From NCBI RefSeq assembly GCF_024464185.1, contig NZ_JANHAU010000003.1, positions 248,001 through 312,000 on the forward strand: a stretch of 64,000 nt of DNA. The letters are read 5' to 3'. Each line of letters begins with the position of its first letter. The stretch's first letter is position 1. Below, piece after piece: positions 29,133 through 31,842 of the stretch. The notes beneath the pieces were generated by a model. It was not told the origin of the DNA. It saw only the letters and a list, made by a program, of their open reading frames with translations, and did not search any database. The DNA comes from Haloarchaeobius salinus. Its GTDB lineage: Archaea; Halobacteriota; Halobacteria; Halobacteriales; Natrialbaceae. Made by a program: the position numbers and the translations under genes.

Positions 29133-29136
29133 CTAG
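29011..29136 (+). CDS. possible 41-aa acidic peptide
   Basis: ATG at 29011, stop TAG at 29134-29136. The product opens MVDPDDAAQRRDADPELERI and is hydrophilic and acidic. A 12-base direct repeat (GACCCAGAACTG, at 29050-29061 and 29107-29118, 57 bp apart and in phase) gives two DPEL copies. No promoter is evident and the 3' end overlaps the tail of the opposite gene by 4 bp. May be a remnant. Confidence 0.3.
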   Translation: MVDPDDAAQRRDADPELERISGDEQRAGPVQPDPELRRSAD

Positions 29137-31757
29137 CGCAGCAGCGCGGCCACGCCGACCACGACGGCGATTGCGAGGCCGAACAACCCACCGCCCATCG
29201 GGTTCGTGACCGCACCGGCCAGCCCGACGAGTCCCGCCGCGACGGCCCCGGAGACGATGCCCGCGGAGACGGCGGACGACCGGGGTGTCCCTGCCGGCTC
29301 CCCGGTCGTGACCGCCTCATCGGACCCGACCCGTTCCTCGAGCGCGTCCAGCCGGTCCGAGAGCGCGTCGAACTCGTCGAGCCGGGTGTCGAGCTCGTCG
29401 ACGTGCCCGGCCAGGTCGTCATCCCCCGTGTCCTCGACCTCGTCGGCGAGGTCGTCCACGCGGTCCTCCACGTCGGCGACCCGCCCGGCCAGCGACTCGT
29501 GGGCCGTCGCATCGGCCGACTCGGCATCGACCCGCTCCACCTCGTCGGCGACTGATTCGACATCACCGACTACGGTCTCGACACGTTCGTCAACGTCGTC
29601 GGTGTCGGCACGGACGTCCGAGAGTGTCGACCGCACCTCGTCGACGGCGTCGTGCTGGTCGCTCACGCCGGCCCGGAGCGCGGCGAGGTCCTCGGTGCTC
29701 GGCGCGTCGCGGTCGGCGACATCGTCCACCCGGTCTGCGAGGCCGTCGACTCGTCCCGCCAGCTCGTCGTGGCCCGAATCGAGCTCCTCGACGCGCCCGT
29801 CGACGTCAGCGACCCGGGAGTCGACCGAATCGACGTCGGAACCGATCTCCGCGAGCCTGTCGTCGACGCGCTCTCCGAGGGCCGAGACGTCCTCGTCCAC
29901 GGCGTCCACGCTCGCCTCGACGGCGGCGACGTCGTCTTCGACTGCTTCCACGTCGGCGGCCACGTCGTCGAGCCGCTCCGAGAGTGCGTCGACCCGCTCG
30001 GCGGCGGCGCTCTCCTCGCGCAGTGCGGCGAGGTCGTCGCCGGTCGCGTCGAGCGCCTCCTCGACGGCGGCGAGGTCGGTGGTCAGGTCCAACCGAAGCT
30101 CCGCGAGCTCGTCGGCGACTGTGTCGACCTCGCTCCCCAGCTCCTCCAGATCCGTCGCGACCTCGTCGACGCGTGATTCGAGGGCTGCGTGGGTATCCGT
30201 GTCTACGGAACGCTCGTCGAGGTCGGCGAGCCGGTCGGCCAGCGCGGAGAGGTCCGCGGCGGTCCCGTCGAGCTCGCCGCGGAGGTCCTCCAGCAGCGAG
30301 CCGTTCAGGTTCGTCCGCCGTTCGAGGTCGCCGACCCGGTCGACCGCGTCGTCGATGCTGTCGTTCGCCTCGTCGAGCTGCGTCGAGAGCTCGTCCACGC
30401 GCCCGGCCAGCGCGGAGAGGTCGGCTGCAGTGGCCGCGGTCTCGTCCAGCGCGGAGAGGCCGGTCGCGACATCGTCGAGCCTGTCGGCCACGTCTTCGAG
30501 GTCCGTCGCGAGGGCGGCCTCGTCGCGGAGTGCCTCGACACGGTCGGCGAGCTCGTCGACCGCAGCCTGCACCTCGTCGAGTTCGTCGTCGCGCTGGCCG
30601 AGCCGGTCGAACATCTGGTCGATGGCCCGGTTCGCGGAGTCGTCCTCGGGGCTCCGACCGGGCGAACCGTCCGCCGGAGCCGGGGACGCGCCCGCCATCG
30701 CGGAGCCGGCTGTCGCCGACGCCGCCGCGGTCTCGCCGCCCGACCCGGCGTCGTCGTCCCCGCTCTCGACCGCGTCCGACCACGCCACGGCCTCGTAGGC
30801 GTCCACATCGGCCACCGCGGCGACGAACGCGCCACGGGCGGGGCAGGCCACGGGCTCCTCTGCCCGCCGTACCGACGACACGGACACGGGCGCGCCGGAG
30901 TCGTCGAGGCGGCCACCGAGCAGGAGTTCGAGGCCCGGGACCGCCCCCTCGCCGGCGAGCACGACCGGGGCCGAGACGCCCGGGCGAACGTCGCCCTCGC
31001 TGGCCTCGCGTTCGAGCGTCGCGAGGAGGTCCGCGACCAGCCCGTCGAACGCCTCCGCGAGCGCGCCCTCGACCCCGCCCGCGGCGGTGTCCGGGCCGAG
31101 CGAGAACGCCGAGAGCGCGACGCGCACGTCGCTCGTGCTCGCGTCGGCGGTGTTGGCCGCTCGCTCGACTACGTCCTCGGTGCCGGTCGGGAGGGAGAAG
31201 GCGACGACGGGGACGCCGTAGTAGGAGAGACAGACCGCGGTCGACTCCGGTCGGACCGCGACGCCGAGGCCGGTGTAGTCGTCGTCCTCGGCCGCGCCGT
31301 AGAGGGTCGCCAACCCCGTGTGGATGGGTGTCCCGTCGAAACCCACCGATCCGAGCGCGTCGGCGACGGCCTCGCGGTGAGCCTCCGTCGGCAGGTCTGC
31401 GTCGACGACGGTGCCAGGCGAGGTGTAGCACGCGCGGTCGGGGTCGTCGACAATCGATTCGACGAGTGCTGCGAGCGCCTCGCCCGCGCCGTCGCGGGCG
31501 GCGAGCACGTCGCGGACGAACAGCGGTTCCGCCGTCGCGCCCGTCGCGTCGGCTGCACGATTCGCGTCCTCCCCCACCACGTACACGGTCCCGTCGCGTT
31601 CGGCGTGCGCGAGGTCGTCGAGGTCGAGGCCGGCGTCGGCGAGCGCGTCCGCGTCGACCGTCGCGACGAGCGCCGGCGCATCGGCGAGCGTCGGGTCGTC
31701 CGGGTCGCCACGGGCGACGCGGAGTCGGTCCGTTCCGAAGTCTAGTCCAGTCACCAT
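29133..31757 (-). CDS. actin/MreB-like ATPase domain fused to long coiled coil and membrane anchor
   Basis: 874 residues in three parts. Residues 1-330 look like an actin/MreB/Hsp70-type (ASKHA) ATPase: phosphate-1 loop GLDFGTDRLRVARG at 4-17, HTGLATLYGAA at 146-156 before a phosphate-2-like strand pair (GLGVAVRPESTAVCLSYYG, 163-181), adenosine motif VVLAGEGAVPGLELLLGGRL at 265-284, and CPARGAFVAAV at 305-315. Residues 330-372 are a low-complexity Ala/Ser/Gly/Asp linker. Residues about 373-815 are Asp/Glu-rich heptads (repeats such as DRVDDVADR, DDLADEVED). Residues 831-873 are two hydrophobic segments. The phosphate-2 strand lacks the usual D-x-G, so ATPase activity is not certain. Predicted role: membrane-attached filament or scaffold in shape or division. 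Not recognised as a named protein. Confidence 0.7.
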   Translation of the reverse strand: MVTGLDFGTDRLRVARGDPDDPTLADAPALVATVDADALADAGLDLDDLAHAERDGTVYVVGEDANRAADATGATAEPLFVRDVLAARDGAGEALAALVESIVDDPDRACYTSPGTVVDADLPTEAHREAVADALGSVGFDGTPIHTGLATLYGAAEDDDYTGLGVAVRPESTAVCLSYYGVPVVAFSLPTGTEDVVERAANTADASTSDVRVALSAFSLGPDTAAGGVEGALAEAFDGLVADLLATLEREASEGDVRPGVSAPVVLAGEGAVPGLELLLGGRLDDSGAPVSVSSVRRAEEPVACPARGAFVAAVADVDAYEAVAWSDAVESGDDDAGSGGETAAASATAGSAMAGASPAPADGSPGRSPEDDSANRAIDQMFDRLGQRDDELDEVQAAVDELADRVEALRDEAALATDLEDVADRLDDVATGLSALDETAATAADLSALAGRVDELSTQLDEANDSIDDAVDRVGDLERRTNLNGSLLEDLRGELDGTAADLSALADRLADLDERSVDTDTHAALESRVDEVATDLEELGSEVDTVADELAELRLDLTTDLAAVEEALDATGDDLAALREESAAAERVDALSERLDDVAADVEAVEDDVAAVEASVDAVDEDVSALGERVDDRLAEIGSDVDSVDSRVADVDGRVEELDSGHDELAGRVDGLADRVDDVADRDAPSTEDLAALRAGVSDQHDAVDEVRSTLSDVRADTDDVDERVETVVGDVESVADEVERVDAESADATAHESLAGRVADVEDRVDDLADEVEDTGDDDLAGHVDELDTRLDEFDALSDRLDALEERVGSDEAVTTGEPAGTPRSSAVSAGIVSGAVAAGLVGLAGAVTNPMGGGLFGLAIAVVVGVAALLR

Positions 31758-31842
31758 GTCCGTCTACACGGCCGGTTGACGGGGGGAGCTATTGGTCGTT
31801 GTGACCGACCGGGAAGGAGAGTGGTGTCGTCGCGGTTCGCCG

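Follow-up and report, generated by a model that had tools for sequence, protein, structure and literature searches.

Why should an archaeal protein join an actin-like head to a long coiled coil and a predicted membrane anchor? The question is raised by a single open reading frame at positions 29133 to 31757 of the window, the 64,000-nucleotide stretch of Haloarchaeobius salinus DNA that was analysed. The gene lies on the minus strand, as do all of its features given below, starts at 31757 and encodes 874 amino acids and a stop. A sequence-only reading had described it as a fusion of an actin-superfamily head with such a tail. The fusion is real, but it is not an isolated one: many species have the protein as a conserved volactin paralogue, with a normal volactin (VolA) alongside.

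The head (residues 1-322; 30792 to 31757) belongs to the volactin family. Residues 1-314 match the Pfam Volactin profile (PF25216) with an E-value of 3e-103 and 346 bits, against a curated cut-off of 35, and an AlphaFold2 model of residues 1-333, made with 25 aligned sequences, has an actin fold (pLDDT 89, pTM 0.88). The structure matches of this model (Z 23-26) were the MamK filament (Z 25.6 over 287 residues), MreB (Z ~24) and actin (Z ~23.5), and also BeeR; with MreB and MamK the match, at Z ~24-26, extends across some 280-290 residues at only 17-20% identity. The long head gave no match to the MreB_Mbl profile (PF06723) at E-values up to 1, and VolA itself scores 26.8 bits there, where the cut-off is 27. 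A search by sequence for a solved structure of a relative returned none that was convincing. The assignment of the N-terminal head to the actin superfamily is thus borne out, and the motifs first quoted for it are the phosphate-1 motif (residues 4-17), the adenosine motif (residues 267-280) and a C-terminal motif (about residues 302-313).

Behind the head, a low-complexity, fast-evolving linker (residues 323-370, 30648 to 30791; pLDDT <50, and the lowest identity between congeners) leads into a coiled-coil stalk of ~445 residues (371-816; 29310 to 30647). Heptads cover 0.68 of the tail, versus 0.14 in shuffled tails, and the full-length AlphaFold model, though weak in both coil and anchor, makes residues 371-816 a near-continuous helix. 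The long heptad tail that had been claimed is therefore present; its acidity is partly the haloarchaeal norm, but its periodicity is not. Between the linker and the coil is a conserved motif (residues 375-392, 30582 to 30635; consensus AIDQLFDRLAxRDDEI) with A378, F383, R385, L386, R389 and D390 invariant in 16 full-length relatives, which may be a docking or coil-start element. Two hydrophobic segments (832-850 and 849-867) close the protein, within a predicted C-terminal anchor or hairpin (residues 829-874; 29136 to 29273), and its N-terminus has no hydrophobic segment. Measured as the 19-residue Kyte-Doolittle mean over the last 40 residues, hydropathy reaches 2.17 or more in all 50 long forms that we collected, whereas none of 36 short VolA exceeds 0.54. 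This agrees with the C-terminal membrane anchor proposed earlier, although the topology of the anchor is read from hydropathy, since the full-length model is weak in this part.

The same genome also encodes a short volactin (an open frame of 357 codons on a separate contig), 33% identical to the long head. Volactin was found in 93 of 119 related genomes, and in some 50 of these there is a second copy, whose open frame runs to 649-1383 codons. The 50 long forms collected run to 575-1263 residues, which, like the 874 of the window protein, is outside the ~330-400 of a single-domain VolA-type protein, and every one has a heptad-rich acidic tail and a terminal membrane-type segment. Carriers include Haloarchaeobius, Halorubellus, Natrialba, Natronorubrum, Natrinema, Haloterrigena, Halovivax, Natronococcus, Natribaculum and Natronosalvus. 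By manual count in a class-wide sample, the long form stands beside a short VolA in ~76 of the 101 volactin-bearing genomes of the window's family and is absent from about a quarter of the family's genomes; it was seen only where short VolA is also present. Divergent long forms occur in other families (loci L076, L080 and L081, and a weak one in G074), and in the phylum outside the class we saw short volactin only.

The long heads come out as a single clade in a tree (support 99). With eleven non-haloarchaeal VolA as the root, they are monophyletic (support 97) and join haloarchaeal VolA (support 100). The ancestral form is therefore the short one, and the long form most simply arose by a single duplication within the haloarchaea. 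The exact positions of L081 and of L076/L080 are unsure because their branches are very long. As a separate single clade (support 97-99) without the Asn11, connect-1 Glu and phosphate-2 G-A-G of VolA, the long form falls outside the VolA orthologue group. Pairwise identity is 91% among VolA, even across families, 45% among long heads and 32% between the two groups. Compared with its congeners, the window protein has a dN/dS of 0.19-0.25 in the head, 0.33-0.43 in the linker and 0.37-0.49 in the coil; the head is the constrained part, and its ratio marks the long volactin as a gene under selection. A sporadic fusion or an assembly artefact is excluded by this purifying selection together with the identical architecture at 50 loci in many genera. 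Relatives from different species differ several-fold in the length of the stalk (about 145 to about 830 residues), which makes it a spacer rather than a fixed ruler.

Mobile elements do not account for the long form. No relative is encoded on any viral contig, and the plasmid matches examined (31-32% identity) are short VolA. One of these places is the 410 kb megaplasmid pNG700 of Haloarcula marismortui, which carries a VolA, annotated as a hypothetical protein (L143, NC_006395.1, 5001-6029); this location contrasts with the apparent essentiality of volactin reported in Haloferax (PMC10869688).

The nucleotide site of the head has diverged from that of VolA. When the VolA profile is aligned to Caulobacter MreB, SFGAGMTN falls on DIGGGTTE and INEGM on IDEPM, so that VolA lacks the phosphate-2 Asp (SFGAG versus DIGGG) and retains the connect-1 Glu and the G-x-G. 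Asn11, the connect-1 Glu and the phosphate-2 G-A-G are invariant in 36 of 36 VolA, and non-haloarchaeal VolA likewise retains Asn11, the Glu and G-x-G, so that VolA has these features throughout the phylum. In the window protein, the phosphate-1 motif GLDFGTDRLRV (residues 4-14; 31716 to 31748) keeps Asp6 but has replaced Asn11; in the long clade this position is mostly Ala, Arg, Thr or Gly, with Asn outside the six commonest residues. The catalytic-type Glu of connect-1, found in VolA and MreB, is Thr in TPIHTGLA (residues 143-150; 31308 to 31331), and Lys, Arg or Thr in most relatives. By alignment, the phosphate-2 strand and loop YTGLGVAVRPESTAVCL (residues 161-177; 31227 to 31277) is degenerate: the second Gly is present in 5 of 50 long forms and is otherwise mostly Gln or Glu, and the window protein's loop, VRPESTA, is even more degenerate than is general in the clade. 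The adenosine-type motif PVVLAGEGAVPGLELLLGGR (residues 264-283; 30909 to 30968) is conserved within the clade.

The absence of D-x-G from phosphate-2 had been taken as a sign that the head may bind nucleotide without cycling. D-x-G is indeed absent, but this is not diagnostic and the argument needs correction, since Haloferax VolA also lacks the Asp yet forms dynamic filaments in cells (PMC10869688). Judged from the alignments, the stronger point against cycling is that three VolA-invariant residues have disappeared together: Asn11, the Glu of connect-1 and the second Gly of phosphate-2. Because Asp6, Thr173, Gly269, Gly275 and Glu277 are conserved within the long clade, nucleotide binding is possible; normal hydrolysis appears doubtful, and the long form is probably a non-cycling volactin paralogue.

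The long gene sits in a chromosomal locus of housekeeping character. In the window, it is preceded at ~85 bases by an NAD-dependent epimerase gene, with a penicillin-amidase-like gene beyond, and followed by a gene for a branched-chain amino acid binding protein. Across loci the neighbours include ribosomal proteins, CutA, a MOSC-domain protein, NAD epimerase and an acetolactate-synthase-like protein (names taken from sequence, with Pfam confirmation for the window's own neighbours); being variable and housekeeping, with none constant, they give no operon with a partner gene. In three genomes of the family that lack the long form, no coiled-coil gene occupies the place behind the epimerase, and a head-less version of the tail was not found there. 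On contig C8 of the window's own genome (L148, 868-2547), a 559-residue Hsp70-like protein has an apparent C2H2-type zinc-finger insert CPECPQGFDYFDDLNDHLSTH after its ATPase domain, and its gene adjoins one with a von Willebrand-type-looking product.

The long gene and VolA are unlinked (on separate contigs in the window's genome), and their upstream sequences differ, giving no sign of coregulation through a common motif. Some 45-60 bases before the ATG of the long gene lies the element TTTTCAnnTyTGGTAyTCgggnCcAAA (loci L033-L079, e.g. L048 and L033), whose core, TTTTCAnnTyTGGTAyT, is exact in 37 of 50 long-gene loci and occurs in exactly one copy per genome, before the long gene, in nine genomes of nine genera. 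The element resembles an activating or operator site dedicated to this gene. In its place, the window's genus carries the inverted repeat GGTCG-N7-CGACC, present upstream of the gene as GGTCG-GTCACAA-CGACC (31794 to 31810), a putative promoter element. In most short VolA genes (L003-L032), the region about 25-40 bases ahead of the ATG contains a nearly invariant CACATAGATTTATAATCCGTC, which has a TATA-like box.

What might such a protein do? The comparisons above establish its anatomy and its paralogy to VolA; for its binding partner, we infer that the simplest use of a degenerate, volactin-derived head on a membrane stalk would be to bind volactin filaments. On general principles, a chain with a hydrophobic stretch at its very C-terminal end, and no such stretch at the N-terminus, should be anchored by its tail and keep the head in the cytoplasm. 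With the coiled-coil helices in parallel, the heads would be paired and would stand off the membrane by up to about 65 nm (445 residues x 0.15 nm, fully extended), an upper limit because the helix has breaks. A head without a normal ATPase cycle could then serve as a binding module that would most likely co-assemble with or cap VolA filaments, making the whole protein a long flexible tether from the volactin cytoskeleton to the membrane, although the partner of the head might be something else.

Filament attachment is a real need, since Haloferax VolA filaments touch the membrane by their tips only (PMC10869688). Because VolA is the one volactin known in Haloferax (PMC7617734), tip attachment does not need the long form, which would be an added, lineage-specific tether rather than a universal one. 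We tentatively favour this reading, in which a tail-anchored volactin paralogue tethers volactin filaments to the membrane, and rate it a little short of probable. The narrower proposal, that a pseudo-actin adaptor caps or co-assembles with VolA filaments while stalk and anchor hold the filament ends tens of nanometres off the membrane, is more speculative. The Volactin match, the actin fold, the architecture of 50 of 50 long forms, the single VolA-derived clade, the lost residues, the head dN/dS and the co-occurrence with VolA all argue for a tether, the last of these weakly, given that almost every genome of the family has VolA. Absence from about a quarter of family genomes, the lack of linkage to VolA and the unshared promoter sequence argue against it, and the variation in stalk length argues against a tether acting as a fixed ruler.

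The same evidence can be read in other ways. The protein could instead be a golgin-like tether or scaffold whose pseudo-actin head binds a non-cytoskeletal partner, such as an envelope, division or chromosome protein. Actin-fold heads have become binding modules elsewhere (PilM, FtsA), and the degenerate active site, fast evolution, variable stalk and clean absence from some genomes would all suit this reading; we nevertheless think it somewhat unlikely, as no partner gene is consistently adjacent and the long form is seen only where VolA is also present. Alternatively, as first suggested, the heads might polymerise themselves, independently of VolA, into a membrane-bound filament at the stalk's length. 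The retained fold, with the filament formers MamK and MreB as best matches, is consistent with this, as is the conservation of Asp6, Thr173, Gly269 and Gly275, by which nucleotide binding may persist. However, Asn11, the connect-1 Glu and the phosphate-2 glycines have been lost, and the heads have diverged (45% identical, against 91% for VolA) to a degree unusual in an actin that polymerises by itself, which makes this reading unlikely.

Finally, the coiled coil itself could be the working part, an intermediate-filament-like membrane rod whose assembly the head regulates. The long heptad array begins with a conserved motif and has weak profile matches to crescentin and SMC-type coils. These fall far below the cut-offs, however (24.3 bits versus 100 for the crescentin rod, PF19220; 67.9 versus 300 for the archaeal SMC-related NF045487, confined to the coil), and it is the head, not the coil, that is the more constrained, so that we regard a rod of this kind as improbable.

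Relative to VolA (HVO_2015 of Haloferax volcanii; PF25216), to which its head is homologous over the whole length and with which it shares the actin fold, the long form adds the linker, the coiled coil and the predicted C-terminal anchor; it is a paralogue, not an orthologue, evolves far faster and has lost the invariant Asn11, Glu and phosphate-2 GAG. The fold is shared with MreB and MamK, but MreB attaches to the membrane directly or through RodZ, whereas the long form would do so by its own stalk and tail anchor. Crescentin, the SMC-like Sph proteins and golgins, some of which have a C-terminal membrane anchor, are likewise long coiled-coil rods, but none has an actin-fold head. Salactin of Halobacterium salinarum, also a haloarchaeal actin homologue, differs in that it is described as an actin with dynamic instability that helps to partition DNA, with no coiled coil mentioned (PMC10746226).

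Volactin is already known, but its long paralogue with the predicted membrane anchor is undescribed: as had been supposed, we found no account of a haloarchaeal actin with such a tail, nor of a long volactin form, in the open-access literature. The volactins offer an archaeal parallel to the eukaryotic actin-related proteins: an actin was duplicated, and one copy stayed conserved while the other evolved fast and its active site degenerated. The factors that regulate VolA filaments are not known (PMC10869688), and the long form is a direct candidate for the link between actin filaments and the membrane in the Natrialba-Natronorubrum-Haloarchaeobius lineage. Many haloarchaea thus have, beside volactin, a second actin-like protein by which the membrane may be connected to the actin cytoskeleton.
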